A stretch of 64,000 bases of DNA, taken from NCBI RefSeq assembly GCF_004135975.1, contig NZ_CP026538.1, forward strand, positions 372,001 through 436,000, written 5' to 3'. The stretch's first letter is position 1. Each line of letters opens with the position of its first letter. This document shows, piece after piece, positions 24,454 to 56,056 of this stretch. Position numbers and translations under genes: made by a program. This DNA comes from Solidesulfovibrio carbinolicus. Its GTDB lineage: Bacteria; Desulfobacterota; Desulfovibrionia; Desulfovibrionales; Desulfovibrionaceae. The notes beneath the pieces are model-generated. The model was not told the origin of the DNA, ran no database searches, and saw only the letters and a list, made by a program, of their open reading frames with translations.

Positions 24454-25207
24454 ACAACCCACGGCCGTTCTTGTCGAAGATCGAATACTGCTTGTAGCCG
24501 AGCTTTTGCAGCCGGAACTGCATGGACGTCTGCAGGACGCCGATGCCGTAGGTGCAGCTGCGGCGGAAATTGATGGACGAGGCTTCGTCGAAGTACTTGG
24601 TGGGGCAGGACACTTCGCCGATGCGGAAGCCGAAGTACACGGACTGGGCCAGCATCTGGTTGTCGAAGACGAAGTCGTCGGAATTTTCCCACAGCGGCAG
24701 GGCTTCCAGCACCTCGCGGGTGAAGGCCCGGTAGCCGGTGTGGTACTCCGACAGCTTGGCCGACATGAGCAGGTTCTGGGACAGGGTCAGGAAGCGGTTG
24801 GCCACGTACTTGTAGACCGGCATGCCGCCGCGCAGGGCCGTGCCGCCGAGAATGCGCGAGGCGATGGCCACGTCGTATTCGCCGCAGGTGCACAGGTTGG
24901 CCATGGCCGGGATGATTTTGGGCGTATACTGGTAGTCGGGGTGCACCATGATGACCACGTCCGCGCCGGTCTTTAAGGCCTCGGCGTAGCAGGTCTTCTG
25001 GTTGCGGCCGTAGCCCCAGTTGCGCTCATGGCGGAAGCAGCGCAGTCCCAGGCGCTGGGCCTGCTTGATGGTGTCGTCCCGGCTGCAGTCGTCGACGAGG
25101 ATGACCTCGTCCACGATGTCCTTGGGGACTTCGGCATAGGTGCGTTCCAGGGTGGAGGCCGCGTTGTAGGCGGGCATGACCACCACCACTTTTTTTCCGT
25201 TCATCAT
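24395..25207 (-). CDS. family 2 glycosyltransferase, DPM1-like
   Basis: A 270-residue protein starting [20 protein letters not shown] at 25207 (GGAGCG upstream). The GT-A signature is complete: [22 protein letters not shown], and [10 protein letters not shown] in place of the DxD strand, then [16 protein letters not shown]. The C-terminus has no obvious membrane spans. The gene overlaps the 3' end of the convergent deacetylase-like gene. It probably transfers a sugar to a polyprenyl-phosphate or nascent glycan of the surrounding envelope locus. Confidence 0.87.
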
Positions 25208-25421
25208 GGGCGTTCGCTCCAGGGGGTCGCCGGATCGCGGGCGGGCCGGCGGAATGCGCCGCGCAAGGGAGAGTTCGCGGCCAAACGCGGAACTAATCCT
25301 GAAAACGGGGGTGCTGTCAACCATTGCGGCCCGTATCGCCGCCGCCGGGCCGACGGACAGGCCGGCGCGTCCCTGGTCGAGGCTTTACATCCAACCTCGC
25401 CTTCAGTACCGAGAGCGGGCC

Positions 25422-27080
25422 ATGACGCATACCTCGACGTCCGCCGGGCCGGTCCCGGCCGCGCCGCCCGCCGCTTCCGGGGCGGCCGGCTTCCGTTTGG
25501 ATTGGGGACTGGCCGCCGTGCTGGTCCTGGCCGCCTTTCTCCTTTTTTACAATCTGGGCCAGCGCCCCTTTTGGCAGGACGAGGCCGAGACCGCCTGTCT
25601 GGCCAAAAATGTCCTGGTCAACGGCCTGCCTTATTCCTTTGACGGCCTCAACGTCGTCTCCCAGGAGGAAGAGCGGGAGTTCGACAAGGTCGGGGGCTAT
25701 CTCTGGCGCTGGTCGCCCTGGATGCAGATTTATCTGCAAGCCGCCGGCTTTGCCGTGGGCGGCCTTGACGCCGCCGCCGGCCGCGTGCCCTTCGCCTTGG
25801 CCGCCCTGGTCGCCGTCTACTGGCTGTACCGCCTCACGCGCCGCCACTTCGGCGACCGCGACCTGGCCCTTTTGGCCGCCATCCTCCTGACCACCTGCGT
25901 GCCCTTTCTGCTCATCGGCCGGCAGGCCCGCTACTACGCTCCGGGCACGCTGTTCGTCCTGTGGACCCTGGATGCCTTCCTGTCCGACTGGCAGCGCAAA
26001 ACCCTGCCGCTTCTGGCCATGTTCGCCGGCATGGCCCTTTTGTTCCATGCCAACTACCTGCTTTTTTTGAGCTTCGCCCCAACGGCCCTGGCCGCCGCCT
26101 TCCTGGTCTATCCCGAGAAGTTCCACTGGAAGCGCCTGGGCTGGCTCATGGCCGCCACCATCGCCCTGGTCATGGTTCCGGGCATCCTGCTCTACCGCAT
26201 CGGCAGCCAAAGCGGCCTGTTCGACGTGCTGCTCGTGCCCGAAAACCTCATGCTCTATTTCGCCGACCTATGCATGTTCTGCCTGCCCTTGCCGGTGTCG
26301 GTCTATCTGGTCTGGCGCTGGCGGCGGTTCGCGACCCGGGGGGAGCGTCCGGCCGATCCGGCCGAGCGGTTCGCGCTGTTTTCGGCCGTGCTCATCGTGT
26401 TCAGCCTGCTGTTTCTAGGCCTGGTTCCCCAGCGGTTTTTCCGCTACATCGCCCACCTGCTGCCGCTGTGCGCCTTTTTGCTGGCCTTTTGCGTGCGCCG
26501 GCTGTGGGGTTTCTCCAGGCTCTCGGCGGTGCTGCTCTTTTTCCTGCTGGCCGCCACCAACTGGCTGGCCGTCTATCCCATGGAGCGGCTCAAGATCGTC
26601 AACCGGCCCTGGCAAAACGATTTCCGGATGCTCACCTCCAACAATTTTCCGCTGAAGCTGTTCGTCACCGAACTGGTCTGCGGCTATCCCGACGTCAACG
26701 CCGCCATCGTGGGATTTTTTACGGCCAACGCCAAACCCGGCCAGACCATCGTGGCCGAATACGGCGACCTGCCCCTGCAATTCGCCCTGTCCGGGGTGCG
26801 GGTGCTGGGCGGCCTGCAAGGCCCCGTCCCCGAGGGGGTCAAACCCGACTGGGTGCTGCGCCGGCGGGTGGTGCGTGTCAACCGCGACCGATTCCTGTTC
26901 GGGACCCGGGAATTCACCGACAGCCTCGACTACGAACGCGACTACGAGCGCGTCCCCGTGCCTTTCCCGGACGAGACCTTCGGCAACCGCACCGACGACC
27001 CCAACCATCATTACTTCATCGCCGTGGAACCGCCCCAAAAGGACCTCGAAATCTGGCGGCGGCGGGAGGGGGCGTCATGA
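25422..27080 (+). CDS. GT39/ArnT-like membrane glycosyltransferase
   Basis: A 552-residue polytopic membrane protein (ATG 25422). The first periplasmic loop carries the acidic motif typical of GT-C enzymes, LGQRPFWQDEAETACLAKN, and about ten further hydrophobic helices follow (RQARYYAPGTLFVLWTLDA is a conserved family stretch). A C-terminal soluble tail of about 150 residues is present. GT39/ArnT enzymes take a sugar from a polyprenyl-phosphate donor and attach it to lipid A or proteins on the outer side of the membrane. The stop overlaps the start of the next gene (ATGA), so the three genes 25422-28008 are translationally coupled. Confidence 0.85.
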   Translation: MTHTSTSAGPVPAAPPAASGAAGFRLDWGLAAVLVLAAFLLFYNLGQRPFWQDEAETACLAKNVLVNGLPYSFDGLNVVSQEEEREFDKVGGYLWRWSPWMQIYLQAAGFAVGGLDAAAGRVPFALAALVAVYWLYRLTRRHFGDRDLALLAAILLTTCVPFLLIGRQARYYAPGTLFVLWTLDAFLSDWQRKTLPLLAMFAGMALLFHANYLLFLSFAPTALAAAFLVYPEKFHWKRLGWLMAATIALVMVPGILLYRIGSQSGLFDVLLVPENLMLYFADLCMFCLPLPVSVYLVWRWRRFATRGERPADPAERFALFSAVLIVFSLLFLGLVPQRFFRYIAHLLPLCAFLLAFCVRRLWGFSRLSAVLLFFLLAATNWLAVYPMERLKIVNRPWQNDFRMLTSNNFPLKLFVTELVCGYPDVNAAIVGFFTANAKPGQTIVAEYGDLPLQFALSGVRVLGGLQGPVPEGVKPDWVLRRRVVRVNRDRFLFGTREFTDSLDYERDYERVPVPFPDETFGNRTDDPNHHYFIAVEPPQKDLEIWRRREGAS

Positions 27081-27517
27081 ACGTACGCCTTTCCCGCGAC
27101 AATTTGATTCGCCTCCTGCTCCTGGTCGCCCTGGGCGGCACCCTCTACAAGGGCTTTCTCAAGACTCCCGAGGGCGCCACGCTTTTTGCCCGCCAGTCCT
27201 TCTACAACGGCCTGGTCAACGACGGCGAGAACACGGCCATCATGAAGGAACGCCACCGCGACGTGCTGGAAGCCACGGACAAGGCGGTCAAGGTCCGCCT
27301 GGACGAGCTGCGCTCCGGGGTCTACAAGCCGGCCCCCGGGTCCCTGGTGTCCGAAGACTCCCTGGTGCGGGCCATTCGCAAGAATGTGGCCACCCGGGCC
27401 AGGGCCGTGGACGACGAGCTGCGTGCCGCTGAAAAACTGGAGCGGGCCAGACGTCTGGAAGCCGCCGGCTGGCGCATGGGCTGGTCCTGCCCGCCGGCCG
27501 GGGAGGTCCAGCCGTGA
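27077..27517 (+). CDS. small membrane-anchored protein of unknown function
   Basis: A 146-residue protein whose ATG overlaps the stop of the GT39 gene (ATGA at 27077). One N-terminal membrane segment (NLIRLLLLVALGGTLY) is followed by a charged, probably helical region (MKERHRDVLEATDKAVK, ARAVDDELRAAEKLERARRLEA) that may form a coiled coil. Function unknown. Its coupling to the GT39 and to the following gene suggests an accessory subunit. Confidence 0.65.
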   Translation: MNVRLSRDNLIRLLLLVALGGTLYKGFLKTPEGATLFARQSFYNGLVNDGENTAIMKERHRDVLEATDKAVKVRLDELRSGVYKPAPGSLVSEDSLVRAIRKNVATRARAVDDELRAAEKLERARRLEAAGWRMGWSCPPAGEVQP

Positions 27518-28008
27518 GCGCCAGACGCGTTTTGCGCTTCGGGTTGTGGGGCATTGCCGGCGCGGTCCTGGCCGGAGTGGGGCTGCTTGTCTGGTTCGGG
27601 GCCTGGCACTATCCGGCCCTGGGCCTGTCCGGCATCCCCAAGGACGGCTACCGCCAGGCCATGGCAATCGCCGCCCAGGGCATGACCGCCGCTGACGGCC
27701 TGGGTTTCGAGGATTTCGATTTCCTCAAGTACCGGGAAGTGCAGCGCGGCGGCGAGGCCTACGCCTGGGGCGCGGCCCGTTGCCGCGCCGCCGACGGGTC
27801 CACGGCCTTTTACTGGGTCTATCTGGAGTGGAGCAAGAAACGCGGCCAGTGGCTGCGCAACTATTCCCTCGAACTGGCCGCCCCGGACGACGAAATCTAC
27901 TTCACCCGCGTAAACCCGGGCCAGCTCGGCCGGGCCAAACTGGCCGCCGGCAAGCTCTTGGGCCAACTCGCCTCCCGGGTCCGCGAGGCCCTGGCCGCGG
28001 CCAAGTGA
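27514..28008 (+). CDS. membrane-anchored protein of unknown function
   Basis: A 164-residue protein starting at a GTG that overlaps the previous stop (GTGA at 27514). A single N-terminal membrane segment (GIAGAVLAGVGLLVWFGAW) is followed by a periplasmic domain of about 130 residues with a Trp/Tyr-rich core (STAFYWVYLEWSKKRGQWLRNYSL). The domain faintly resembles exosortase-associated EpsI-type proteins, but I cannot support that. Last gene of the three-gene coupled unit 25422-28008. The 188 bp before the next gene contain no recognised signal. Confidence 0.6.
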   Translation: MSARRVLRFGLWGIAGAVLAGVGLLVWFGAWHYPALGLSGIPKDGYRQAMAIAAQGMTAADGLGFEDFDFLKYREVQRGGEAYAWGAARCRAADGSTAFYWVYLEWSKKRGQWLRNYSLELAAPDDEIYFTRVNPGQLGRAKLAAGKLLGQLASRVREALAAAK

Positions 28009-28196: not shown

Positions 28197-29477
28197 ATGA
28201 GACTGCGCCAACGCTGCGAGCACTTCAATGCCCTGCATTCCCAGATTTCAGCCCAGGGCATCAATCCGTATTTCCGCCCCATCGCCCAGACCTGGGGCAC
28301 CGAGGTCGAGGTTGGCGGCAAGCGCCTCATCATGATCGGCTCCAACGACTACCTGGGCCTGAGCCACGACCCCCGGGTCATGGATGCCTCGGCCCAGGCC
28401 GTCTATCACTGGGGCACCGGCCCCGGCGGCTCGCGCTTTTTAAGCGGCAACATGGTGCTCCACCACCACCTCGAAGAGCGTCTGGCCGATTTCGTGGGCA
28501 AGCGCCATGTGGTGGTCCACGTCACCGGCTTTAGCGCCAACCTGGGCGCTTTGGGCGTACTCATCACCCCGGCCGACACCGTGCTGTGCGACCGGGAAAA
28601 CCACGCCAGCATCTTCGAGGGCGTCAAAAACACCAAGGCCCGCCTGGCCACCTTTGCCCACAACGACGCCGCCCACGCCTTAAAGCGCGTGGAGGACGCC
28701 AAGGCCGCCCGCCCCGACGGCGACGTGTTCCTCGTTACCGAGGGCGTGTTCAGCATGTCCGGCGAACTGGCTCCCTTGGACGAGATCGCCGCCATCAAGG
28801 ACGCCCACCCCGACGTGGTCTTCTATCTCGACGACGCCCATGGCCTGGGCGTGTTCGGCCGCGGCGGCCGCGGCAGCGCCGACCATTTCCGCATCACGGA
28901 CAAGGTCGATTTCATCATGGGCACGTTCAGCAAGTCCATGGCCTCCATCGGCGGGTTTATCGCCTCCGACGACGAAGACATGCTGCGCTACCTGCGCTAC
29001 CAATCGCGCACCCAGATATTCTCCGCCGCCCTGCCGGCCGCCAACACCGTGGCCGTGCTCACCTGTCTGGACATCCTGGCCAAGGAGCCTGAACGCGTGG
29101 ACCGGCTCCACGAGGTCACGGTGCGGATGCGCCATGCTTACCGCGACATCGGGCTTCGCATCGGCAACTCGTCCTCGCCCATCATTCCCATCATCATCGG
29201 CTCGGACGAAAAGGCCTTTTTCTTCTCGCGCGCCCTGTTCGAGGCCGGGATCTTCGCCCTGCCGGCCGTGTATCCGGCCGTGCCCCGGGGCCAGGCGCTC
29301 ATTCGCACCGCCTACATGAGCACCCACCAGGACCGTCAGCTCGATGTCGTGCTGTCCGTGCTGGAAAAACTGGCCAAGGAATTCCGCATCCGGGAGTGCG
29401 ACTTGGAAGAAGACCCGCAGTCGGCCGCCGGCGAGGAAGAGGGCGACGCGCCCCGGGGCAAGCTGTCCTACCTGTAG
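28197..29477 (+). CDS. alpha-oxoamine synthase, serine palmitoyltransferase-like
   Basis: A 426-residue PLP enzyme. Motifs in order: QGINPYFRPI (14-29 region), IMIGSNDYLGLSHDP (46-59), GTGPGGSRFLSGN (73-85), NHASIFEG (135-142), YLDDAHGLGVFGRGGRG (210-226) and the PLP lysine K246 in GTFSKSMASIGGF. PIIPIIIG and RTAYMSTH complete the pattern. This family condenses an amino acid with an acyl-CoA or acyl-ACP. The GINPYFRPI and RTxYMxTH motifs point to the serine palmitoyltransferase subgroup rather than BioF or KBL. The C-terminal tail of about 25 acidic residues is unusual. It opens a run of closely spaced genes (permease, ATPase, channel, adaptor, GNAT-like), so the product is likely a lipid that is exported. 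Confidence 0.85.
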   Translation: MRLRQRCEHFNALHSQISAQGINPYFRPIAQTWGTEVEVGGKRLIMIGSNDYLGLSHDPRVMDASAQAVYHWGTGPGGSRFLSGNMVLHHHLEERLADFVGKRHVVVHVTGFSANLGALGVLITPADTVLCDRENHASIFEGVKNTKARLATFAHNDAAHALKRVEDAKAARPDGDVFLVTEGVFSMSGELAPLDEIAAIKDAHPDVVFYLDDAHGLGVFGRGGRGSADHFRITDKVDFIMGTFSKSMASIGGFIASDDEDMLRYLRYQSRTQIFSAALPAANTVAVLTCLDILAKEPERVDRLHEVTVRMRHAYRDIGLRIGNSSSPIIPIIIGSDEKAFFFSRALFEAGIFALPAVYPAVPRGQALIRTAYMSTHQDRQLDVVLSVLEKLAKEFRIRECDLEEDPQSAAGEEEGDAPRGKLSYL

Positions 29478-29522
29478 GGCGGCCAGGCGAAACTCCTCGG
29501 GTCCGCAGCGGAACTATTCGGT

Positions 29523-30776
29523 ATGGCCATAGGCAAACGCAAAAAAATCACCGTCGCCGAGCTCGACCGCATCCGTCGGCGCGGCGCCGGTCCCATGCGC
29601 TACTTCGACCTCGTGCGCGTCAGCGTGCGCGAGGTCCTGCGCAAGCGCCGCCGGTACATCGGCGTCCTGGCCTCCATCGCCCTGGGCATGGCGGGTTTCA
29701 TCGTCATCATCACCATGGGCAATGACCTCAAAAAGAACTTCAACAACGACCTCGACCTGCTTGGCGGCGCGACCATCATCAACGTCATGTTCGAGCCCCA
29801 AAACCTCGAACGCCAGGAATGGTTTCGCGACCGCACCCTTGAGGCCATCGCCCGCATTCCGGGGGTGCTCGACATCACCACCGTGGCGCTCAAGACCAGC
29901 GCGGTAACGACTTGGCACGACCGGCTTTTCGGCTTCAATCTGGTCGGCTGCGAAGCCAACTACTGGAAGGTCTTCTCGTTTAACGCCAAGGCCGGCCGGC
30001 TGTTCGACCAGCGCGACATCGAGGAAGGGGCGCGGGTGTGCGTGGTCGGCGCCGACCTGGCCCGGCAGATTTTCGGCAGCGAGGACGCGGGTATCGGCCA
30101 GACGTTGTCCATCGACGACAATCTCTACACCGTTGTCGGCATCCTCGGCGGCGTGCGGGCCGGCGACCGGGCGCTTTTCGTCTTTTTGCCCATCACCACG
30201 GCCAAGGCCCGGGTGGTCGGCATCTCCCAGCCCTACAGCGCCTACGTGCGCTGCGCCACCTGGGACGACGTCAGTTCGGTGTCCAAGGCCGTGCCCGGCG
30301 TGGTCAAGGCCAACCAGATCGACCGAGGGCTTCGGGTCAACGTGGCCTGGGAGCCGCTCAAACAGGTGCAGCGCATTTTCTGGTGGGTGGAGCTTTTCAT
30401 CTACAGCTCCATCGTCGCCACCATGATCCTGGGCGGATTTGGCATCTGGAACATCATGATGGCCACGGTCACCAGCCGGACCCGGGAAATCGGGCTGAAA
30501 AAGGCCATGGGCGCGCTGGATTCCGACATCCTCTACCAGTTCCTGTTCGAGGCCCTGTGCGTCACCTTGTCCTCGTCGGTGTTCGGCGTGATTCTTGGCC
30601 GCGTGGGCATCGAATACATGAGCCGGATGCTGGGTTCGCGTCCGCCCGAGGGGCTTTTTGTTTTCTGTCTGCTCATGGGCCTGGGATTCGCCGCGATTCT
30701 CGGCGTCGGCGCGGGCCTTTATCCCTCCATCCGGGCCAGCCGGATGCAGGTCGTGGACGCCATGCGCTATGAGTAA
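29523..30776 (+). CDS. ABC transporter permease, MacB/LolC type
   Basis: A 417-residue permease with the MacB topology: one N-terminal membrane helix (YIGVLASIALGMAGFIVIITMG), a large periplasmic domain (about 75-285), then three helices around GFGIWNIMMATVTSRTREIGLKKAMGAL, LFEALCVTLSSSVFGVILG and LLMGLGFAAILGVGAGLYPSIRASRMQVVDAMRYE. This is the mechanotransmission type of ABC protein, which drives substrates from the periplasm or outer leaflet into a TolC channel. Its stop overlaps the start of the ATPase by 8 nt. A basic cytoplasmic N-terminal extension of about 35 residues precedes helix 1. Confidence 0.9.
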   Translation: MAIGKRKKITVAELDRIRRRGAGPMRYFDLVRVSVREVLRKRRRYIGVLASIALGMAGFIVIITMGNDLKKNFNNDLDLLGGATIINVMFEPQNLERQEWFRDRTLEAIARIPGVLDITTVALKTSAVTTWHDRLFGFNLVGCEANYWKVFSFNAKAGRLFDQRDIEEGARVCVVGADLARQIFGSEDAGIGQTLSIDDNLYTVVGILGGVRAGDRALFVFLPITTAKARVVGISQPYSAYVRCATWDDVSSVSKAVPGVVKANQIDRGLRVNVAWEPLKQVQRIFWWVELFIYSSIVATMILGGFGIWNIMMATVTSRTREIGLKKAMGALDSDILYQFLFEALCVTLSSSVFGVILGRVGIEYMSRMLGSRPPEGLFVFCLLMGLGFAAILGVGAGLYPSIRASRMQVVDAMRYE

Positions 30777-31473
30777 CCGCTACGACATCAACGACGACAA
30801 CGCCCTTGTCATCGACATCAACCACCTGACGAAAAACTACGTCACGGCGGCCGGGCAGATCACTGTCTTAAAAGACGTCAATCTCCATGTGCGCCGGGGC
30901 GAGATGGTGGCGGTCATGGGGCCTTCGGGCTCGGGCAAGTCCACGCTGCTGTTTGTGCTGGGACTGTTCCAGCCGCCAAGCACCGGCGACTATCAGGTGG
31001 CCGGCGTGGACGTCCTGTCCCTTAGCCGCGACCAGCAGGCCATTTTTCGCCGGGAGATGCTCGGGTTCGTTTTTCAGACTTGTGACCTGCTTGAAAACTC
31101 CACGGTGTACGAAAACCTGGAGTTGCCGCTGATCTATGCCGGCGTGCCCCGCCGGGAGCGGCCCGACCGGATTCGCGAGGCCCTTGGCATGGTCAACCTC
31201 GACCACCGGGTCCACCAGCCGTCCAACCGACTGTCCGGCGGCGAGCGCCAGCGCGTGTCCATCGCCCGGGCCCTGGTCAACGAGCCGGAATTTATTTTGG
31301 CCGACGAGCCCACCGGACAGCTTGACCGGGAAAACAGCCTCCGTGTACTGGAGTATTTTACAAAGATCACGGAAGAAGCGAGAACGGCCATGGTCGTGGT
31401 CACCCACGATGCCATGACCGCGGAACATTGCACGAGAAAATGCGTCCTGACGGACGGCTATCTAAACGGGTAA
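30769..31473 (+). CDS. ABC transporter ATP-binding protein, MacB/LolD type
   Basis: A 234-residue ATPase starting at the ATG at 30769, which overlaps the permease stop. Walker A is GPSGSGKST, followed by the Q-loop region (VFQTCDLLENSTVYENLELPL), signature LSGGERQRVSIARAL, Walker B FILADEPTGQLD and the H-loop VVTHD. The VYENLELPL motif and the small size are characteristic of LolD/MacB-class ATPases, which pair with a four-helix permease such as the gene just upstream. Confidence 0.93.
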   Translation: MSNRYDINDDNALVIDINHLTKNYVTAAGQITVLKDVNLHVRRGEMVAVMGPSGSGKSTLLFVLGLFQPPSTGDYQVAGVDVLSLSRDQQAIFRREMLGFVFQTCDLLENSTVYENLELPLIYAGVPRRERPDRIREALGMVNLDHRVHQPSNRLSGGERQRVSIARALVNEPEFILADEPTGQLDRENSLRVLEYFTKITEEARTAMVVVTHDAMTAEHCTRKCVLTDGYLNG

Positions 31474-31493
31474 CGCTCGACGGGGAGGAGCGC

Positions 31494-33158
31494 ATGGCCA
31501 GGAAACTGACCTGTTGGCTGGGGATGGCGGCGTCCGGGGGGAACGCGCCTTTTGGGGGGAAACGGCTTGTGACCGTGGCCCTTGCCTGTCTTTTGGGGCT
31601 GTGTCTGGCCATGCCGGCCATGGCCGCTCCCGGGGACCGCTACACCAAGGACAAGGCCAAGGGGGCGACGACCCAGCCCGCGCCGACGCCGGCTCCGGTC
31701 GCCAAGGCGGCGTCTCAGCCCGCCGATCCCGCCTCCGATGATCCCGCGCCGAGTTTTTCCAAGGCCGCCGGGGCCTTGGCCCTGGGGTCCACGACCTTGC
31801 GTTCGCCCGCCGATTTTGACGAGTGCGTGCGCGTGGCCCTGGCCCAGTCGCCGCTTTTGACCAAAAGCGCCATCGAGATCGAATCCAAGCGCCTTGACGT
31901 GGGGGACGCCTACTCGCAGTACATCCCCACCATCGTCATGAGCACGACGTTTTACATGCGTCTGCCGGAGTACAAGAACACCGTCGCCAACACGGCGTAT
32001 GCCTCGGTGTTCGAGAACGCCTCCTCGAACCCCACACAGAACCTGTCCAACGCCATCACCGCCTCCAACGCCGTCTATGCCGGCAACTCCTCCAACCGCA
32101 ACCGCAAGAAATACGACCTGAGCTTTTCCACCGGAGCCTGGAACCCGCTGTTGACCGCCTTTGACGTCCAGGCCAAGAAGGAAATGGCCAACATCGCCGT
32201 GCTCTCCCACCTCAAGGTCATCGACGGCGGGCTTAAGCGCTTGGGCGTCACCTACCTCCAGCTCGGCATGGTCGAGACCATGATCGGCATGGCCAAGGAA
32301 AAGGAAGAGCTGGCCCAGAAGAACCTGGAATACGTCAAGACCCGGGCCGGCCTGGGCCAGGGCGCCCAGCTCGACGTGCGCATCGCCGAGACCAAGATCA
32401 ACATGGCCCGCACCGAAGCCGAGAAGATGCGCACCACCAAGTCGGTGCTCCTTGACGAAATGAAGTTCATCATGGGCATTCCCTTTGTCCAGAAGATCGA
32501 ACTGTCCCTCAAGGACGCTCCCCGCCAGGTGCTGGAAGACTTCAACCCGGCCGGCGTCACCGACGAGAAGCTCAAGAAGCACTCCTTCGCCCTGCGCATC
32601 CACGAGTACGAGAAGGCGCTTCAGAAAAAGAACATCGCCCTGTCTTACATCCATTTCCTGCCGACCTTCTCGTTTGGCTTCACTTCGGTGTCCACCCTCA
32701 ACAACACGAGCTACAAGGACGACACATCGACCTTGCCGTTCATGTATCCCAACCTGACGCTCAATTTCCCCTTCGACTGGTGGACCAAGGGACGTGACGT
32801 CAGCCGCCAGTACAAGAAGATGACCCAGCTGAGCGTGGAAGGCCGCAATCAGGAGTTTACCCTCATGAGCACCTTCCAGCAGGCCCTGGCCAAGCTGCGC
32901 GCCGCCACCTCGGAAGTGAAGTTCGCCGAATCGTCCCTGGAGCTGCAAAAGCTCACCGTGCAGCAGGCCCAGTTCCGGTTCGATTCCGGCCAGGCCGAAT
33001 ACGACGCCATCGTCAAGGCCATGGGCGATTATCTCGACAGCAAGCAGAACATGCTGGTCAAACAGTACGACCGTGATTCCGCCATGCTGGAGGTCCGTTC
33101 CATCTCCGGCGACTTCCAGGATCGCTACATCAACGCGACCATGATCGACAGCCTCTAG
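31494..33158 (+). CDS. TolC-family outer-membrane channel protein
   Basis: A 554-residue exported protein; the ATG at 31494 follows GGGAGGAGCGC. A signal peptide with a long n-region ends near PAMAAPG (about residue 43). An Ala/Pro linker is followed by the outer-membrane efflux repeats: FDECVRVALAQSPLLTKSAIEIESKRLDVGDA, paired long helices (KEELAQKNLEYVKTRAGLGQGAQLDVRIAETKINMARTEAEK), and a second repeat ending RFDSGQAEYDAIVKAMGDYLDSKQNML. It would form the trimeric outer-membrane exit duct for the ABC transporter encoded just upstream. Confidence 0.85.
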   Translation: MARKLTCWLGMAASGGNAPFGGKRLVTVALACLLGLCLAMPAMAAPGDRYTKDKAKGATTQPAPTPAPVAKAASQPADPASDDPAPSFSKAAGALALGSTTLRSPADFDECVRVALAQSPLLTKSAIEIESKRLDVGDAYSQYIPTIVMSTTFYMRLPEYKNTVANTAYASVFENASSNPTQNLSNAITASNAVYAGNSSNRNRKKYDLSFSTGAWNPLLTAFDVQAKKEMANIAVLSHLKVIDGGLKRLGVTYLQLGMVETMIGMAKEKEELAQKNLEYVKTRAGLGQGAQLDVRIAETKINMARTEAEKMRTTKSVLLDEMKFIMGIPFVQKIELSLKDAPRQVLEDFNPAGVTDEKLKKHSFALRIHEYEKALQKKNIALSYIHFLPTFSFGFTSVSTLNNTSYKDDTSTLPFMYPNLTLNFPFDWWTKGRDVSRQYKKMTQLSVEGRNQEFTLMSTFQQALAKLRAATSEVKFAESSLELQKLTVQQAQFRFDSGQAEYDAIVKAMGDYLDSKQNMLVKQYDRDSAMLEVRSISGDFQDRYINATMIDSL

Positions 33159-33252
33159 GCGTTGAGGATAGGCATTCCCCTCAAGGATTGCATGACACAC
33201 TGCCGGCGGACTCTGTGCAAAGGGTCCGCCTGAACCTTACTGCAAGGAATAC

Positions 33253-34197
33253 ATGCGCATGATACGTCGCGCCGTGCTGCTGGCGGCTGGGATATCGATC
33301 TTTTCCGCCACGGTCGCTTTTGCCCAGACTCCGGCCGCGCCGGCCGAAAGCCCGGAGCGCTCCTCCTTCCGCCCTGCCGACATCTCCTTTTCCGGCAAGC
33401 TCTACAGTCCGGTCAAACTCTCGGTCTTCTTGCCGTTTAACGCCAAGATCCTGTCCCTTTCCGGACAGATCGGGCAGCATGTCAAACGCGGCGACGTGCT
33501 GGCTTCCTACGAGATCCCCTTGGAAACGCGCATGGACGAGAAAACCAAGCTCTCGCCGGCCAACATCAAGGAACTCGAACACAAGTTGGCCGTGGCCGAC
33601 AAAGAGATCGACCGCCTTTCGGCCAAGGGGCGCGAACTGGAGGCCATGAGCCAGCGCAACATGACCTCCCAACAGGCCATCTCCATGAACGCCAAGGAAG
33701 TTGAGGTGGTTCGCAAGGAGAAATCGGCCGTTTTGGAGCAGCTTTCCCTGGCCCGGGATCTCCTCACCGACCGAGTCGAGCTGGCCGAAGACCGCTTCGG
33801 CAAGGGCGTGGGCATCGGCAAGGTGCCCAAGGACGGCATCATCAAGGCTCCGGTCGATGGCTACGTCATGTGGATGAACCCCGAGCTGCGCGCCGGGGTC
33901 AAGCTGGCCAAGGAAGCGGAACTGTTTCAGGTGGGTCTGCTCAATCCCATGATCATCCGGGCCCAGGTCCACGAGATCGAAGCCCAGAAGCTCAAGGAAG
34001 GCGTGCCTGCCGTGGTCACCTTCGATTCCATTCCGGGCAAGAAGTTCACTGCCTCGGTGTCGCGCATCCCCTGGGCGCCCATGCCGGCCGCCTTGCAGCA
34101 GCCTTCCTACTACGAGATCGAACTGACCATCCCCAACCCGGATGCCGAGCTCAAGGAAGGCCTCAAGGCCCAGATCACCATCCAGCCCGGCAAGTAG
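33253..34197 (+). CDS. periplasmic adaptor (membrane fusion) protein
   Basis: A 314-residue exported protein with a signal peptide ending AFAQ near residue 25. The split lipoyl/barrel-sandwich motif is visible in two halves: LSLSGQIGQHVKRGDVLASYE and IIKAPVDGYVMWMNPELRAGVKL. Between them lies an alpha-helical hairpin (about residues 100-190: ANIKELEHKLAVADKEIDRLSAK). A beta-barrel domain follows (QVHEIEAQKLKEGVPAVVTFDSIPGKKF). It belongs to the HlyD/MacA/RND adaptor group and would join the MacB-like permease to the TolC-like channel. A 94-bp gap separates it from the channel gene; the next gene starts 6 bp downstream. Confidence 0.87.
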   Translation: MRMIRRAVLLAAGISIFSATVAFAQTPAAPAESPERSSFRPADISFSGKLYSPVKLSVFLPFNAKILSLSGQIGQHVKRGDVLASYEIPLETRMDEKTKLSPANIKELEHKLAVADKEIDRLSAKGRELEAMSQRNMTSQQAISMNAKEVEVVRKEKSAVLEQLSLARDLLTDRVELAEDRFGKGVGIGKVPKDGIIKAPVDGYVMWMNPELRAGVKLAKEAELFQVGLLNPMIIRAQVHEIEAQKLKEGVPAVVTFDSIPGKKFTASVSRIPWAPMPAALQQPSYYEIELTIPNPDAELKEGLKAQITIQPGK

Positions 34198-34203
34198 ACG
34201 CCC

Positions 34204-35343
34204 ATGACTAGCCCCTCCCTTGTGGTCGAGCCGGTGGCCGGGCCGGCCGAGCTTGACGCGTTCATCCGCTATCCCTGGGAAATCTACCGCGACGATCCCT
34301 TGTGGGTGCCGCCGCTTATCCCCATGCAGCGTGATTTCCTGAACCGTGACAAAGGACCGTTTTTTGAATTCGGCCAGGCCGAATACTTCCTGGCCCGCCG
34401 CGACGGCAAGATCGTGGGCCGCATTTCGGCCCATCTAAACGGTCTCTACGAACAGCACCACGACAAGGACACCGGGTTTTTCGGCTTTTTTGAATGCGAA
34501 AACCGCCAGGAAACCGCCGACGCCCTGTTTGAGGCCGCTGCGGCCTGGGTGCGAGGCCACGGCAAGACCCGCATCCACGGGCCGCTGTCCTTTGGCATCT
34601 ACGACGAGGTCGGGCTTTTGGTGGACGGCTTTGATTCGCCGCCGTCCATGATGCAGACCCACAATCCGCCGTACTACGAAGAATTGGTCAAGGGTTGGGG
34701 CTTTGAAAAGACCTACGATTGGTATGCCTACCGTATTTCCGAGAAGCCGGGCATGGACGTCGAGAAGCTCAAACGGCTGCGCGATTCCATCCTCACCAGA
34801 CAAAAGTGCGAGATAAAGCCCATCGAACGCAAGGAATTCGCCAAACGCGGCCCCCAGATCAAAGAGCTTTTCAACGACATCTGGAGCAAGAACTGGGGCC
34901 ATGTGCCGCTGACCGACAAGCAGTACGAGGACATCTTCGTCACGCTGCAGCCCCTGGTGCGGCCGGACCTGGAGACCATGATCCTCGACGGCGACGACAT
35001 CGCCGCCTTTGCCGTGGTGTCGCCGGACATGAACCGGTCGGTCAAAAAATTTAACGGCAAGTTCGGCTGGTGGCAAAAGCTCCAGCTGCTTTGGGATTGC
35101 CGGGTCAAACCGCTGACCCACTGCCGGGCCATCATCATGGGCGTGTCCCGCGCTCACCAGTGGAAGCGCCTGCACCACGCCATCATCCTCAACATCATCA
35201 TCAATTTTCTGGTCAACCACCCCAAGATGGAATACTGCGACTGCTCGCTCATTCCCGAATCCCTGGAACAATGGAACAAGACGCTTCAGGATTTCGGCGG
35301 CGAACGCTACAAGGTGTTCCGCCTCTATGACCGTGCCCTCTAG
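34204..35343 (+). CDS. GNAT-like acyltransferase, candidate bacterial ceramide synthase
   Basis: A 379-residue soluble protein starting 6 bp after the adaptor gene. The N-terminus has the motif FIRYPWEIYRDDPLWVPPL, then GPFFEFGQAEYFLARRDGKIVGRISA, HGPLSFGIYDEVGLLVDGFDSPP, MMQTHNPPYYEELVKGWGFEK and, after a spacer, a second GNAT-like half (DIAAFAVVSPDMN, GVSRAHQWKRLHHAIILNIIINF). From memory this family includes the Caulobacter N-acyltransferase identified as a bacterial ceramide synthase, and related proteins of unknown role. Together with a serine palmitoyltransferase-like gene in the same run, N-acylation of a long-chain base is a reasonable hypothesis but unproven. Confidence 0.6.
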   Translation: MTSPSLVVEPVAGPAELDAFIRYPWEIYRDDPLWVPPLIPMQRDFLNRDKGPFFEFGQAEYFLARRDGKIVGRISAHLNGLYEQHHDKDTGFFGFFECENRQETADALFEAAAAWVRGHGKTRIHGPLSFGIYDEVGLLVDGFDSPPSMMQTHNPPYYEELVKGWGFEKTYDWYAYRISEKPGMDVEKLKRLRDSILTRQKCEIKPIERKEFAKRGPQIKELFNDIWSKNWGHVPLTDKQYEDIFVTLQPLVRPDLETMILDGDDIAAFAVVSPDMNRSVKKFNGKFGWWQKLQLLWDCRVKPLTHCRAIIMGVSRAHQWKRLHHAIILNIIINFLVNHPKMEYCDCSLIPESLEQWNKTLQDFGGERYKVFRLYDRAL

Positions 35344-35388: not shown

Positions 35389-37101
35389 GTGCGTTTCGTG
35401 TGTTGCTCGCAGCTTCATAATAACGATTTCCTGGGCGGAAGCTCGCACCGGCCGGTGCGTCCCTTGGACTGGATGGCCGTGTGCCTGCTGTCGGCCCTGG
35501 TGTTCGCCGTGGCCCACCGGCTGGGGCTGGCCTCGCCCTACGTCGTTAACGACGATGTGCGCCAGCAGCTTTTCTGGATGGCCCGGTGGCTTGATCCAGG
35601 ATTGTACCCATCGGATTTTCTGTCCGATTACGCCGCCGCCTACGTCCCGGCCGGGGTCAAGGCCCTGTATTTCGCCGCTGCCAAGGGCTTTGGCTGCGAT
35701 CCGATCCTCTTCTCCAAGCTGCTGACCGGCGGGCTTTTCGTTCTTTTGGCCGCAAGCCTTTTCGGCATCGGCGCGACCCTGGAAGGGCCGATGCTCGGCT
35801 GGTTTTGCGCCGCCATGGCCTGGGCGATGCCGTATTTTCTCAAAAACATCTCCGGCGGGCTGTCCCGGGCCTTTGCCGGGCCGCTTTTGGCCCTTTTTTT
35901 CTGGGCCTGGCTGCGCCGCTCGGGCCGGGGCATGGCCTGGGTTCTGCTGCTGCAGGCCGCGACCATCCCCTACATCGCCATGCTGTGCGCCGGTTGCGCC
36001 TGCCTGGACGCCGTCATGGCCCGGCTCACGGACCGCCCGGCCGCGCCGTTTCCGGCCCGGCCCGTCCATGGGCTGGTGCTGGCCGCCGCCGCCGCCGCCG
36101 TTTTGGGCATGAACCAGGCCCTGGCCGCCAAGGGTTACGGCCCGTTGGTCGGCCGGGCCGCCCTGGCCGGAGACCCGGTATTCGGCCCAAACGGCAGATT
36201 GGACCTGTTCCCGCTGCCCAACCCCTTTCTCGATCTGGTTTACTGGCCCTTTGAAAGCATCGGGCTGTTCCTGGAGTGGGGGCTTTTCCCGGGCATCGCC
36301 ACCCTGGCCGTGCTGGCCCCCATGCTCTGGATCGGGGCGCGCCGGGCCCCCTGGCGCGACTACATACCCCTTTATCGCCCGGCGGCCATGCTCCTGGCTG
36401 GATCGCTGGGGCTGTATGCCCTGGCCCGGGCCATTGCCCTGGTGCTGTTCGTGCCCGACCGCTACATCTCCTACTCCATCAATCTGCTCTACGCCCTGGG
36501 GCTGGCGCTTTGCCTGCGCTGGTTTTTCGGCGGCCTGCTGGCGCGACGTTTTGGCGGCCCGGCGCTCTTGGCGTTGGCCGTCTGTTTCGGCTGTTGGCGG
36601 CTATCCGGCGTGGGCCTGTACGACTACCGGGCCGACGCGCCGCTTTGCAGCGCCGTGGCCGCCTTGCCCAAGGACGCGCTTGTGGCCGGCAACCCCAAGG
36701 ACCTGGACAATGTCCTGACCTTTGGCCGGCGCAACGTCGTGGCCAGCTTCGAGCTGGCCCATCCCTGGAGCGTGGGGGCCTGGAAGATCATGACCCCGCG
36801 CCTGGGGCATCAGCTGGAAGCCTACTACGCCAAGGACTCCGACACCGTGCGCGAGTTCGCCCGGGTCTACGGCGTCACGCACATGGTCGTTCGCGAAGGG
36901 GACTACGCGCCCAAGGCCATGGAAAAAGGGCCGCTTTTTGCGCCCTTTGACGACCGCATCCGGGAACTGGCCGCCGCCTCCGGTAAATTCGCCCTTCTCG
37001 ACGGGGCTGAATTTCCCTATACCAGCCCCGAGCCCGGCGTACGGCTGATCGATCTGCGTCGCCAGCCCGATGCGCCCCGGGGCCAAGCTTCGCCCGAATA
37101 A
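35389..37101 (+). CDS. polytopic membrane protein, possible GT-C glycosyltransferase
   Basis: A 570-residue protein with a GTG start at 35389 and about eleven hydrophobic helices. A periplasmic loop near residue 55 (VVNDDVRQQLFWMARWLDPGLYPSDFLSDYA) carries an acidic pair after helix 1, in the position where GT-C enzymes hold the catalytic residue. The C-terminal about 130 residues are soluble (LPKDALVAGNPKDLDNVLTF, FARVYGVTHMVVREGDYAPK). I cannot assign a family. It is 45 bp after the GNAT-like gene and 27 bp before a polyprenyl-phosphate-type GT2, a natural pairing for sugar transfer at the membrane surface. Confidence 0.6.
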   Translation: MRFVCCSQLHNNDFLGGSSHRPVRPLDWMAVCLLSALVFAVAHRLGLASPYVVNDDVRQQLFWMARWLDPGLYPSDFLSDYAAAYVPAGVKALYFAAAKGFGCDPILFSKLLTGGLFVLLAASLFGIGATLEGPMLGWFCAAMAWAMPYFLKNISGGLSRAFAGPLLALFFWAWLRRSGRGMAWVLLLQAATIPYIAMLCAGCACLDAVMARLTDRPAAPFPARPVHGLVLAAAAAAVLGMNQALAAKGYGPLVGRAALAGDPVFGPNGRLDLFPLPNPFLDLVYWPFESIGLFLEWGLFPGIATLAVLAPMLWIGARRAPWRDYIPLYRPAAMLLAGSLGLYALARAIALVLFVPDRYISYSINLLYALGLALCLRWFFGGLLARRFGGPALLALAVCFGCWRLSGVGLYDYRADAPLCSAVAALPKDALVAGNPKDLDNVLTFGRRNVVASFELAHPWSVGAWKIMTPRLGHQLEAYYAKDSDTVREFARVYGVTHMVVREGDYAPKAMEKGPLFAPFDDRIRELAAASGKFALLDGAEFPYTSPEPGVRLIDLRRQPDAPRGQASPE

Positions 37102-37128: not shown

Positions 37129-38082
37129 ATGCCGGACATGCTTTCCATCATCATCCCGCTCTACAATGAAGAGGACAACATCGAGCCGCTCTACGCCAAG
37201 CTCGACGCCGTCCTTGGTTCTCTGGGCCACCCCTACGAAGTCATCCTGGTCAACGACGGCTCCACCGACGACACGCGCGCCCGGATCGACGCCGTGGCCG
37301 TGCGGGACGAGGTCGTGCGCGTGGTGCATCTGCGCCGTAACTTCGGCCAGACTCCGGCCATGATGGCCGGCATCGACGCCGCCCGGGGCGACATCCTCAT
37401 TCCCATGGACGGTGATCTGCAAAACGATCCGGCCGATATCCCGAAGCTTTTGGCCAAGCTCGACGAGGGCTTTGACGTCGTCTCGGGCTGGCGCAAGGAC
37501 CGCAAGGACAATCCCATCAAGCGCAACCTGCCAAGCCGCATGGCCAACGCGCTCATTTCGTTTATTTCCGGCGTCCGTCTCCACGATTACGGCTGTTCGC
37601 TCAAGGCCTATCGCCGCGACATCATCAAGGGCGTGAAACTCTACGGCGAGATGCACCGCTTCATCCCCATCCACGCCGCCTGGCAGGGCGCTCGGGTGAC
37701 GGAAGTGAGCGTCACCCACCATCCCCGCATCCACGGCGCGTCCAAGTACGGCATCGAACGCACGCTCAAGGTCATTTTGGATCTCATGACCGTGAAGTTC
37801 CTGGACAAGTATGCCCAAAAGCCCATGTATCTCTTCGGCGGTTTCGGGCTGGCCAGCATCGCCCTGTCCATGCTCTTTTTCGTGTTCATGCTCTACTGCA
37901 AGATCTTTTTGAACAAGAGCTTCATCGAAACGCCGCTGCCTCTGGCCGTGGTCATGTTCATGCTCATCGGCATCGTCGCCGTCTTCATGGGCCTTATTGC
38001 CGAGATTCTCATGCGCACCTACCACGAGTCCCAGGACAAGCCGACCTACATCGTGGACTGCACCCGAAACTGCAAGGACTAG
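37129..38082 (+). CDS. GtrB/ArnC-like polyprenyl-phosphate glycosyltransferase
   Basis: A 317-residue family 2 glycosyltransferase: LSIIIPLYNEEDNIEPLY, EVILVNDGSTDDT, RNFGQTPAMMAGIDAARGD, MDGDLQNDPADIPKLL and the GCSLKAYRRDII motif. RIHGASKYGIERTLKVILDL precedes two C-terminal membrane helices (LFGGFGLASIALSMLFFVFML and PLAVVMFMLIGIVAVFMGLIAEIL). This layout is that of ArnC/GtrB enzymes, which make undecaprenyl-phosphate-sugar for GT-C transferases. It would supply a donor to the membrane proteins at 25422 or 35389. Confidence 0.9.
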   Translation: MPDMLSIIIPLYNEEDNIEPLYAKLDAVLGSLGHPYEVILVNDGSTDDTRARIDAVAVRDEVVRVVHLRRNFGQTPAMMAGIDAARGDILIPMDGDLQNDPADIPKLLAKLDEGFDVVSGWRKDRKDNPIKRNLPSRMANALISFISGVRLHDYGCSLKAYRRDIIKGVKLYGEMHRFIPIHAAWQGARVTEVSVTHHPRIHGASKYGIERTLKVILDLMTVKFLDKYAQKPMYLFGGFGLASIALSMLFFVFMLYCKIFLNKSFIETPLPLAVVMFMLIGIVAVFMGLIAEILMRTYHESQDKPTYIVDCTRNCKD

Positions 38083-38090
38083 GCTCAAGC

Positions 38091-39965
38091 GTGTGCGGCA
38101 TTTGCGGATTTGCCGGCCCGGGCGGCGCGCCGGCCCTGGCCGCCATGAACGCCGCCCTGGCCCGGCGCGGGCCGGACGGCGAAGGCCGCTTTATTGACGA
38201 GGCCCGGGCCGTCCACCTGGCCCACCGCCGTCTGGCCATCATTGACCTCGAAGGCGGAGCCCAGCCCATGGCCACCGCCGACGGGCGGCTGGTGGTCACC
38301 TACAACGGCGAGATCTATAATCACCTGGAACTGCGCCGGGAACTGGCCGGCCGGGGCTACCGCTTTGTCTCCGACCACAGCGACACGGAAATTCTGCTCC
38401 ACGGCTGGCGCGAGTGGGGGGAAGGGCTGCCCCAGCGCTTAAACGGCATGTGGGCCTTTGTCCTCTACGACCAGGACCGGGGAACGCTTTTCTGCTCCCG
38501 GGACCGGTTCGGCAAGAAACCTTTTTTCTATGCCGCCAAGCCGGGCTTTTTCGCCTTTTCCTCGGAGCTGGGGAGCCTTGCGGCCCATCCGGCCCTGGCT
38601 GATCGGTCCATTTCCCGGCGAAGCTTGCAGAAATATTTCGCCTACGGCTTCATCCCCGGGCCAAACGCCTTGTACGCCGGTACGCACAAGCTCCCCGGCG
38701 GCTGCAACCTGCTCCTGGACGTCGCCGATCCGCGCCCGGAGCCGAAGCGTTGGTGGACCTTCCAAGTCGAGCCCGACCCGGCACTGTCCGCCGTGCCCGA
38801 GGCCAAGGTGGCCGGGCGCGTCCTTGAACTCCTGGACGCCGCCGTGGCCCGCCGGCTCATGGCCGACGTGCCCCTGGGCATTTTTCTCTCCGGCGGGGTG
38901 GATTCCTCGGCCATCACCGCCCTGGCCGCCCGTCATGCCCCGGATGTGCGCGCCTTTTCCATCGGCTTCGACGATCCGGCCTTCGACGAATCGGCCAAAA
39001 GCCGCCAGGCGGCCGAGGCCATCGGCGTGGCCCGCCACGAGGCGAGATTTACCCTGGACGCCGCCCTGGCGCTTATGCCCGAAATCGTCGGCCGTCTGGA
39101 TGAACCCATGGGCGACGTGTCGCTGATTCCCACGGCCCTGTTGTGCCGCGAGACCCGCCGGCACGTCACCGTGGCCCTGGGCGGCGACGGGGCCGACGAA
39201 CTGTTCGCCGGCTACGATCCGTTTCGCGCCCTGGCCGCCGCCAAGGCTTTCAGCGCCGTGGTCCCGCGCCCGGTCCACGCCGCCCTGGCGCTTCTCGCCG
39301 CGCGCCTGCCCGTGGCCCACGGTTACATGGCCCTGACCTTTAAGCTCAACCGGTTTCTGGGCGGCCTGGCCCAGCCGCCCAGACTCTGGAACCCGGTCTG
39401 GCTCGGCCCCCTTGGCCCGGACGGATTGGCCGACCTCTTTGGCGGCCCTATCGACGTTGAGGACGTCTACAGCGAGGCCATCGAGGTTTACGACGGCTGC
39501 GCCTCGACCAACCTCGTGGACCGGACTCTGGAATTCTACACGCGCCTCTATCTCCAGGACGACATCTTGGTCAAAACCGACCGGGCCGGCATGATGTTCT
39601 CCCTGGAAGCCCGGGCCCCGTTCCTCGACATCGAACTGGTGGACTACGTGCGCGCCCTGCCGGCCGGCCTGAAGTTTCGCCGGGGGATCACCAAGTACAT
39701 CCTGAAAAAAGCCCTGGAGACGGTCCTGCCCCGGGACATCATCTACCGGAAGAAACAGGGCTTTGGCGTGCCCATCGGCCGCTGGCTGGCCCAGGGGCGG
39801 CTGCCCTTGGGCGAACCCGCGCCCGTGGAAGCGTCGCTGGCCGCCGCCGCCATCGAGCAGCATATCGCCGCCCACCGGGCCGGCCGGGCCGACCATAGGC
39901 TTTTTCTCTGGAATCTCTGGGTGCTGCGCCACATGGACCTGGGAGGAGGCCGCCTTGCGTTTTGA
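38091..39965 (+). CDS. asnB: asparagine synthetase-like glutamine amidotransferase (copy 1)
   Basis: A 624-residue class II amidotransferase. The GTG at 38091 is fixed by the need for Cys2 (MCGICGF). The glutaminase domain has RRGPDGEG, LAHRRLAIIDLEGG, YNGEIYNHLELR and SDTEILLHGWREWG. The synthetase domain has the PP-loop FLSGGVDSSAITAL and SIGFDDPAFDES, with GGDGADELFAGYD. Such enzymes in surface-polysaccharide loci usually amidate a sugar carboxylate or an amino-acid decoration rather than make free asparagine. The 3' end overlaps the methyltransferase start. A second paralogue lies at 42179. Confidence 0.9.
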   Translation: MCGICGFAGPGGAPALAAMNAALARRGPDGEGRFIDEARAVHLAHRRLAIIDLEGGAQPMATADGRLVVTYNGEIYNHLELRRELAGRGYRFVSDHSDTEILLHGWREWGEGLPQRLNGMWAFVLYDQDRGTLFCSRDRFGKKPFFYAAKPGFFAFSSELGSLAAHPALADRSISRRSLQKYFAYGFIPGPNALYAGTHKLPGGCNLLLDVADPRPEPKRWWTFQVEPDPALSAVPEAKVAGRVLELLDAAVARRLMADVPLGIFLSGGVDSSAITALAARHAPDVRAFSIGFDDPAFDESAKSRQAAEAIGVARHEARFTLDAALALMPEIVGRLDEPMGDVSLIPTALLCRETRRHVTVALGGDGADELFAGYDPFRALAAAKAFSAVVPRPVHAALALLAARLPVAHGYMALTFKLNRFLGGLAQPPRLWNPVWLGPLGPDGLADLFGGPIDVEDVYSEAIEVYDGCASTNLVDRTLEFYTRLYLQDDILVKTDRAGMMFSLEARAPFLDIELVDYVRALPAGLKFRRGITKYILKKALETVLPRDIIYRKKQGFGVPIGRWLAQGRLPLGEPAPVEASLAAAAIEQHIAAHRAGRADHRLFLWNLWVLRHMDLGGGRLAF

Positions 39966-42077: not shown

Positions 42078-42178
42078 CGTGGGTCATGTTCCCATAATAT
42101 TCACTCTATCCGTGTAGAGTATTCCGCTCGGCCTCGTTTGAGGCACGGCGTCGCAACAAGGTCGGGGAGGGGGAGCGT

Positions 42179-55759: not shown

Positions 55760-56056
55760 CTATTTCCAAATTCTCTGGCTATTAGCCTTTATTTTTTTTT
55801 GAATTATGCTGGAAATGTCCATTTTTAAAACATTTGAAAGTTGAACGCAGTAAATTATTACGTCAGCGATTTCGTCGCCAACGCATTCGTTGTTAGCAGT
55901 TTCTGACCATTGAAAGCATTCTAATAATTCTGATGCTTCCAAAGAAATTGATATAGCAAGGTTTCGAGGGGTTTGTGGTCTGCTGGAATCTTTTTCGTAC
56001 CATTTGTTTTTAATGGCCAAGCTGTTGACTTGTGCCAAAATTTCTTCAAGATCCAT
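55760..56056 (-). CDS. MazG-like nucleotide pyrophosphohydrolase
   Basis: A 98-residue protein. The ATG at 56056 is preferred because GGGGAGAT lies five bases upstream; the open frame extends to 56119. All-alpha MazG/RS21-C6-type signature: NLAISISLEASELLECFQWSE, with acidic residues on two helices, then CVGDEIADVIIYCVQLSNVL (ExxD pair) and a basic tail. Members hydrolyse NTPs or dNTPs to monophosphates; small phage- and island-borne versions are common. It is the last gene of the AT-rich operon; the start overlaps the methyltransferase 3' end by 11 nt. Confidence 0.8.
   Translation of the reverse strand: MDLEEILAQVNSLAIKNKWYEKDSSRPQTPRNLAISISLEASELLECFQWSETANNECVGDEIADVIIYCVQLSNVLKMDISSIIQKKIKANSQRIWK

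Follow-up and report, generated by a model that had tools for sequence, protein, structure and literature searches.

An SPT-type synthase lineage linked to a MacB/TolC-type pump in Solidesulfovibrio carbinolicus: a probable module for the synthesis and export of a ceramide-type lipid

We have analysed a stretch of 64,000 nucleotides from the genome of Solidesulfovibrio carbinolicus (the window; positions 372001–436000 of contig C1, in a genome of 4.69 Mb in 6 contigs). On its + strand, at 28197–35343, lies a row of six genes that probably forms a module for the synthesis of a ceramide-type lipid and its export by a dedicated MacB/TolC-type pump. The gene content, the protein families, the phylogenetic placing and the co-inheritance of the module are directly established. 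The synthesis part of the proposal appears well supported, and the export part is supported by strong comparative evidence only. The product is best read as an N-acylated, perhaps still keto and possibly glycosylated, long-chain base.

Gene layout of the module

The six genes encode, in order, an alpha-oxoamine synthase of the serine palmitoyltransferase (SPT) type (28197–29477), a MacB-like permease of the type VII ATP-binding cassette (ABC) kind (29523–30776), an ABC ATPase of LolD/MacB/DevA type (30769–31473), a TolC-type outer-membrane channel (31494–33158), a periplasmic adaptor, or membrane-fusion protein (33253–34197), and an N-acyltransferase of the YghO/bacterial ceramide synthase family with a tandem GCN5-related N-acetyltransferase (GNAT) fold (34204–35343). 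The gaps between them are 45, −8, 20, 94 and 6 bases, the start of the ATPase gene overlapping the end of the permease gene by 8 bases, and a further 45 bases lead to the next gene; this is spacing as in an operon. An initial, sequence-only reading of this DNA had described six closely spaced genes on one strand, and all are present where it placed them. The end that it gave the module, 35343, proved too short: a gene for a predicted GT-C-type membrane glycosyltransferase (35389–37101, + strand) comes next in 12 of 16 loci compared outside the genus, and it is the last one in the module to be conserved widely. In all 16 of these loci (the comparison omits L146 and L155, where contigs end inside the module) the genes for SPT, permease, ATPase, channel and adaptor occur together, and the arrangement is therefore not due to chance. 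A promoter scan gave fewer matches than shuffled sequence, and a terminator scan gave 14 against 10.4 in shuffles (SD 2.7), which is not clearly above chance.

Linkage of synthase and pump across genomes

The linkage was surveyed in 296 genomes, at least 90% complete and drawn evenly from the phylum, with only the best candidates per genome scored (SPT at E ≤ 1e-75, permease at E ≤ 1e-50, GNAT at E ≤ 1e-35); the genomes are related, so that the counts are not independent events, and they depend on the E-value limits named. SPT homologues were found at 56 places in 52 genomes, 14 of them close to the window synthase (at least 56% identity) and 42 distant (at most 49%). A permease gene lies no more than 1 kb downstream of the close SPT, on the same strand, in 14 of 14 genomes, and within 10 kb of the distant SPT at none of the 42 places. 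All 14 close-SPT genomes have a GNAT gene, nine of them within 10 kb of the SPT; for the distant SPT, 24 of 42 places have one no more than 3 kb away. The idea of a dedicated exporter in the sequence-only reading is thus strongly supported by comparative linkage (14/14 against 0/42), with the substrate and the transport itself inferred.

From a scan of named records the best 80 of 553 loci were kept, to which the figures in this paragraph refer; 21 are close (SPT identity at least 51%) and 59 more distant. Permease and ATPase genes are directly downstream on the same strand in 20 of the 21 close loci, the last, L155, stopping at a contig edge. Channel and adaptor genes come next at 19 loci (L146 stops short of them), a GNAT gene is present at 13 and the GT-C gene at 15. 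These loci span Desulfovibrionaceae, Desulfobacca, Syntrophobacterales, Syntrophales and a Kiritimatiellae metagenome-assembled genome, and the closest named relative of the synthase is from Solidesulfovibrio magneticus UBA7700 (99% identical). The other 59 loci are more distant, and many are short; no permease was found downstream in any of them, and L195 has a weak permease match (31%) on the opposite strand, ~3 kb from the synthase. A GNAT homologue is present in 19 of these 59. The Myxococcota label of some rows rests on records named only Deltaproteobacteria bacterium.

Among 99 genomes of relatives (limits of E ≤ 1e-70 for SPT, 1e-30 for permease and 1e-5 for GNAT), SPT was detected in 23, permease in 30 and GNAT in 25, and the three together in 13 of 13 congeners. 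Sister genera have the genes in the order SPT, permease, ATPase, channel, adaptor, GNAT and GT-C, except that the GT-C gene is missing from one of their loci (L084). In G033, G023 and G028 the first five genes and the GT-C gene stand together with the GNAT gene elsewhere, ~4 kb upstream in G033. G025 has a 38% identical synthase without the permease. Linkage in G027 cannot be judged because the SPT pieces stop at contig edges; the permease is on another contig.

Phylogenetic placing of the synthase

Compared with NCBIfam models, the synthase scores 401 bits against SPT of the CFB type and 339 against SPT beta, with 323 for BioF, 313 for the KBL-type model PRK06939 and 203 for the CqsA type. 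The best PDB match is the Sphingobacterium-type SPT 3a2b/8guh at 309 bits (the source organism we take to be Sphingobacterium), and the cysteate acyltransferase 28eh matches at 207 bits. The pyridoxal phosphate (PLP)-lysine motif GTFSKS, the motif DDAHxLGV and the arginine-bearing LIR motif align with 3a2b. In a tree of 65 oxoamine synthases, built without a labelled CqsA reference, a branch with support 98/91 splits an SPT side, which includes the window synthase, from BioF, KBL and HemA. Forcing the window clade with the latter three in an approximately unbiased (AU) test of 63 rows costs 50 log units (p-AU 0.0012). On the SPT side are also the synthases of E. coli, Rahnella, Sphingomonas, Diaphorobacter, Streptomyces and Parabacteroides records, together with 15 of 16 rows that carry the label GNAT-linked (all but L213, Gemmatimonadetes); the second oxoamine synthase of the genome (L002) is on the BioF/KBL/HemA side. 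The window synthase belongs to a clade of its own that has full support (100/100, 19 rows) and in which permease linkage is the rule; for the rows chosen, just one change on the SPT tree accounts for this linkage.

Identity as BioF, KBL or HemA is ruled out by the hidden Markov model (HMM) scores, the tree and the AU test, and the SPT type first proposed for the enzyme is upheld. Identity as CqsA is ruled out by the HMM score only, the best SPT model scoring about twice the CqsA-type model. The amino acid used is most likely serine, with alanine and glycine as alternatives.

The GNAT protein

The GNAT protein has no match to any Pfam or NCBIfam profile at E ≤ 0.01. In a tblastn search against plasmids it matches YghO-type proteins of E. 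coli and Rahnella with 32.6–33.6% identity over 98% of its length (32.6–32.9% over 98%, E ~1e-50, for the E. coli YghO records). A 2022 paper lists yghO (ECD_02850) as the counterpart, in E. coli, of CC_1154, which is among the five genes that Caulobacter is reported to need for dihydroceramide (PMC9386255), and it is through this listed counterpart that the link to CC_1154 runs. The position near bacterial ceramide synthases suggested earlier thus stands on full-length homology to YghO and not on a profile match. An AlphaFold model (pLDDT 90) has a tandem GNAT fold, with N-myristoyltransferases among its more distant fold matches, and would be compatible with N-acylation of a long-chain base.

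All five named GNAT-homologue loci that were opened contain an SPT-type gene (by which we mean genes annotated only as class I/II aminotransferase that lie on the SPT side of the tree), and LptF/LptG-type genes are present in three of the four proteobacterial ones. With acyl carrier protein as ACP, short-chain dehydrogenase/reductase as SDR and fatty-acyl-AMP ligase as FAAL, the order is lptF-lptG-SPT-ACP-SDR-FAAL-yghO in E. coli, SPT-ACP-SDR-FAAL-GNAT in Rahnella (LptF/G not listed), SDR-ACP-SPT-LptF-LptG-GNAT in Sphingomonas and SPT-GNAT-SDR in Streptomyces, whilst Diaphorobacter has LptF/G-GNAT and FAAL-ACP-SPT.

Pump proteins and the GT-C glycosyltransferase

The four genes between synthase and GNAT make up a complete exporter set of the MacB/DevBCA type. 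The permease has Pfam MacB_PCD and FtsX domains and four hydrophobic segments, predicted to be transmembrane; its PDB matches are MacB and 5xu1, and it matches the lipoprotein-release LolC/E model weakly (37.7 bits). The ATPase scores 213 bits against LolD, 212 against DarD, 202 against MacB and 163 against DevA, all under the cut-offs. In the channel Pfam OEP is matched in two stretches and TIGR01844 at 46.8 bits (under cut-off), and the adaptor has HlyD_D23 and HlyD_3 domains with a weak PDB match to MacA. Both of these proteins begin with a hydrophobic, signal-like segment. MacB and LolCDE act on the periplasmic side.

The GT-C gene has no Pfam match. An NDD motif near the N terminus is invariant in 13 of 13 aligned homologues, and a predicted model (pLDDT 83) resembles STT3/PglB, DPY19, ArnT and AftA in Foldseek (E from 1.5e-8 to 6e-4), with TM scores by query length of 0.42–0.53 and large rmsd. 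GT-C enzymes of this kind act on the periplasmic side with polyprenyl-linked sugars, and glycosylation of the lipid before export is therefore plausible.

Proposed pathway and points against it

From these assignments we infer the substrates, the glycosylation, the direction of transport and the destination. In the cytoplasm the SPT-type enzyme would join an acyl thioester and an amino acid, likely serine, to give a 3-keto long-chain base, which the YghO-type tandem GNAT would N-acylate to a keto-ceramide. Some flippase would move this to the periplasmic leaflet, where the GT-C enzyme would probably glycosylate it. The MacB-like permease and ATPase would then take the lipid from the outer leaflet of the inner membrane or from the periplasm, and the adaptor and TolC-type channel would pass it to the outer membrane or the cell surface. 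A further proposal, which is possible but rather doubtful, is that a MacB-type, TolC-coupled trans-envelope pump for sphingolipids arose once, in Thermodesulfobacteriota as well as some other phyla, together with an SPT lineage of its own, that it fills the role proposed elsewhere among bacteria for LptC2/F2/G2, and that it brings a periplasmically glycosylated 3-keto-ceramide to the surface.

A number of observations weigh against a ceramide-type module with its own pump. The synthase falls under every curated SPT cut-off (401 against 640 bits and 339 against 500); since it is also under the curated cut-offs of the remaining oxoamine-synthase NCBIfam models listed, we read it as an SPT-like lineage outside the curated sets. 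The GNAT-linked L213 is on the BioF/KBL/HemA side of the tree together with L110–L112, from genomes with GNAT and an SDR resembling the reductase CerR, so that the company of a GNAT gene is not by itself a mark of the SPT side. The GNAT gene is unlinked to SPT in G023 and G028 and lies beyond 10 kb of it in 5 of the 14 close-SPT genomes of the phylum survey; at the limits used there, 31 of 75 GNAT genomes are without SPT and 8 of 52 SPT genomes without GNAT. Of the 25 genomes with a permease, 11 are without a close SPT; these belong to genus g40 (8) and family f58 (3), and their permeases are diverged (30–38%). In G040 (L094, 4717–9287) permease, ATPase, channel and adaptor stand without an adjacent SPT, and the sole synthase of that genome at E ≤ 1e-15 groups on the BioF/KBL/HemA side. 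A wider CerR profile, with all 81 candidates scored, gives ten matches of 58–105 bits in the S. carbinolicus genome and no clear orthologue, and a search for AasR gave just one match, of 50.8 bits over 99 residues (372–470 of an E. coli-plasmid AasR-type protein). An AasR-type acyl supply like that of Rhodobacteria is rejected, the match being no longer than this.

The sequence-only reading had remarked that no reductase or acyl carrier protein gene lies in the window and had pointed to a genome search for CerR. That search agrees with it, the best match in the genome, at 105 bits, being partial (profile positions 2–242 of 323), and nowhere in the genus (14 genomes, 21 candidates scored per genome) did a CerR match reach 1e-40. 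On the wider profile the GNAT-adjacent SDRs of G033 and G052 reach 429 bits (a profile row) and 308 bits (not a row). Some carriers of the module may not share this gap: in G043, a sister-genus genome that has the module, SDRs score up to 191 bits on the CerR profile, and at the close loci L141 and L148 the CerR queries match weakly (28% and 32%). The missing reductase is, as far as sequence searches tell, a real gap in the canonical pathway, so that the product may retain the keto group or may be reduced by an enzyme of another family, for example of the Bacteroides BT_0972 type. In Caulobacter, SPT and CerS are reported as cytoplasmic and CerR as periplasmic, so that acylation precedes reduction (PMC11087976), and such an order would fit a keto-ceramide as the stable intermediate here.

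In four genomes in which no close SPT was found (G038, G052, G042 and G016; L091, L093, L098 and L099), the GNAT gene is directly followed by a CerR-like SDR. Synthases from three of them, L110–L112, form a separate lineage beside the GNAT-linked Gemmatimonadetes sequence. In favour of the proposal, in G038, G042 and G052, of the same family, a diverged permease (34–36%) adjoins glycosyltransferase and GT4-like genes; the glycosyltransferase of G052, the only one of the three scanned, matches Glyco_transf_21, which we take to be the ceramide glucosyltransferase family. By eye, polyketide synthase (PKS)-like and phosphopantetheinyl-transferase-like genes were seen beside the SPT-pump module in G033 (L085, 28–10566), a locus that also has the GNAT gene, a CerR-like SDR, a radical SAM gene and a glycosyltransferase-like gene next to the module; this company suggests a PKS-fed sphingolipid there.

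Other readings of the module

A module of this kind might make a diffusible amino-ketone or N-acyl amino-ketone, a signal or secondary metabolite pumped to the medium. MacB/TolC-type pumps often move small amphiphiles, the ATPase scores well, if under cut-off, against DarD (darobactin export) and bacteriocin-export models, and CerR was not found. We nevertheless think such a product rather improbable, given the twofold lead of the best SPT model over the CqsA type, the YghO family length and context of the GNAT protein, and a gene set shared by all 13 congeners and by members of other families, which is more like core envelope biology than a sporadic cluster. Synthesis might also run as proposed with the pump serving another cargo (a lipoprotein, a glycan or another glycolipid) and merely sharing the operon. 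The weak LolC/E match of the permease would fit this, as would the position of the locus amid glycosyltransferase and asparagine-synthase-like genes and the pump that G040 retains without an adjacent SPT. Yet the pump is contiguous with the close SPT in all 14 genomes of the phylum survey that have one, and in 20 of 21 named loci (best 80 of 553), most other flanking sugar genes, the GT-C gene excepted, vary between families, and the permease linkage needs one change on the SPT tree for the rows chosen, so that a separate cargo seems to us unlikely.

The substrate of the synthase bears on a further reading, in which alanine, glycine or cysteate is used and a 1-deoxy- or sulfono-ceramide-like lipid leaves by the same pump. 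Work on the Black Sea suggests that 1-deoxyceramides and sulfono-1-deoxyceramides of the upper euxinic zone may be made mainly by Desulfobacterota and/or Bacteroidota (PMC11334938). The Sphingobacterium-type SPT matches well above the cysteate acyltransferase, and sequence alone does not settle the amino acid; on this evidence one of these substrates is not very likely. We thus retain the N-acylated long-chain base exported by its own pump as the probable reading.

Relation to known systems

The Caulobacter/Rhodobacterial cluster (aasR, cerR, acpR, spt, cerS, LptC2/F2/G2) likewise has an SPT with a YghO-type N-acyltransferase and a (proposed) transport system beside the synthesis genes. Here, in contrast, no cerR or aasR orthologue was found, acpR is not in the module, and a MacB/adaptor/TolC set replaces the proposed Lpt-type paralogues. 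In the 21 close-SPT loci of the named scan (best 80 of 553) neither acpR, for which no genome-wide search was made, nor LptF/LptG was matched at E ≤ 1e-6; LptF/LptG are present in L186 and L192 among the 59 distant loci. The Bacteroidota-type SPT lies on the same side of the tree and is the best HMM and PDB match, and the window enzyme differs in having its own clade.

For the pump, the nearest working model is by analogy DevBCA-HgdD of Anabaena, which is similarly composed of a MacB-like permease, a separate ATPase, an adaptor and a TolC channel and exports an amphiphilic glycolipid, its activity being highest with heterocyst glycolipids (PMC6161253). It differs in this cargo, whereas the pump described here is encoded in one operon together with SPT and GNAT; the DevA and DevB models match the window proteins, but under cut-off. 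MacAB-TolC has the same domain make-up of permease, adaptor and channel and is among the best solved relatives of the permease and adaptor, and it differs in that ATPase and permease are separate genes here and in its gene company; the score against the MacB equivalog is 112 bits, with a cut-off of 966.

The sequence-only reading had held the coupling of synthesis with TolC-type export to be new. Because TolC-type glycolipid export has a precedent in DevBCA-HgdD, the novelty lies in the sphingolipid link. Among the papers listed in searches of an open-licence PMC library, no title or displayed abstract describes an exporter that pairs an SPT lineage with a TolC-type pump; the component families are known, and it is this pairing that appears new. 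The route of sphingolipids from the inner to the outer membrane is an open question in bacteria: a 2024 study states that its authors had not yet identified flippases or lipid transporters for bacterial sphingolipids (PMC11087976), and Lpt paralogues have been proposed for their transport without a test (PMC11324152). A pump locked to one SPT lineage would make the question testable by the removal of one gene, and for this reason we consider the finding of good interest. From the module one would further expect ceramide-type lipids in a group of sulfate reducers and related bacteria, and possibly a keto-ceramide route without CerR.

Neighbouring genes

Downstream, the + strand gene at 37129–38082 encodes a GT2 glycosyltransferase of the ArnC/polyprenyl-phosphate-sugar synthase type (210 bits against the NCBIfam undecaprenyl-phosphate formamido-arabinose transferase model, under cut-off), which adjoins the module in the genus and several sister genera. 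Asparagine-synthase-like genes (38091–39965 and 42179–44083) and methyltransferase-like and GT4-like genes, all assigned by eye, follow; the first of them recurs beside the module in the genus and some sister genera, and the stretch 38091–44083 resembles a surface-glycan cluster.

Upstream, directly 5′ of SPT in the genus and some sister genera, is a conserved small protein with one N-terminal hydrophobic segment and no Pfam match (27514–28008, + strand). Before it come a PMT_2/ArnT-like membrane glycosyltransferase (25266–27080, + strand; Pfam PMT_2), kept in the genus and sister genera, and on the − strand a GT2 gene (24395–25324; Pfam Glycos_transf_2), found near the module in 8 of the 16 non-genus loci and 63–78% identical in other genera and families. 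Of 16 loci examined, 6 have zinc dehydrogenase genes upstream of the module.

Elsewhere in the window, 56001–58000 has 41% GC in a genome region of ~65% GC and carries a methyltransferase-like gene. Just past this stretch is a transposase-like gene (57693–59021), and the sequence composition and gene content suggest that 56001–59021 is probably a recent insertion. The gene at 59372–60496 encodes a secreted protein resembling amide hydrolases of the choloylglycine-hydrolase/penicillin-acylase type. These three assignments were made by eye.

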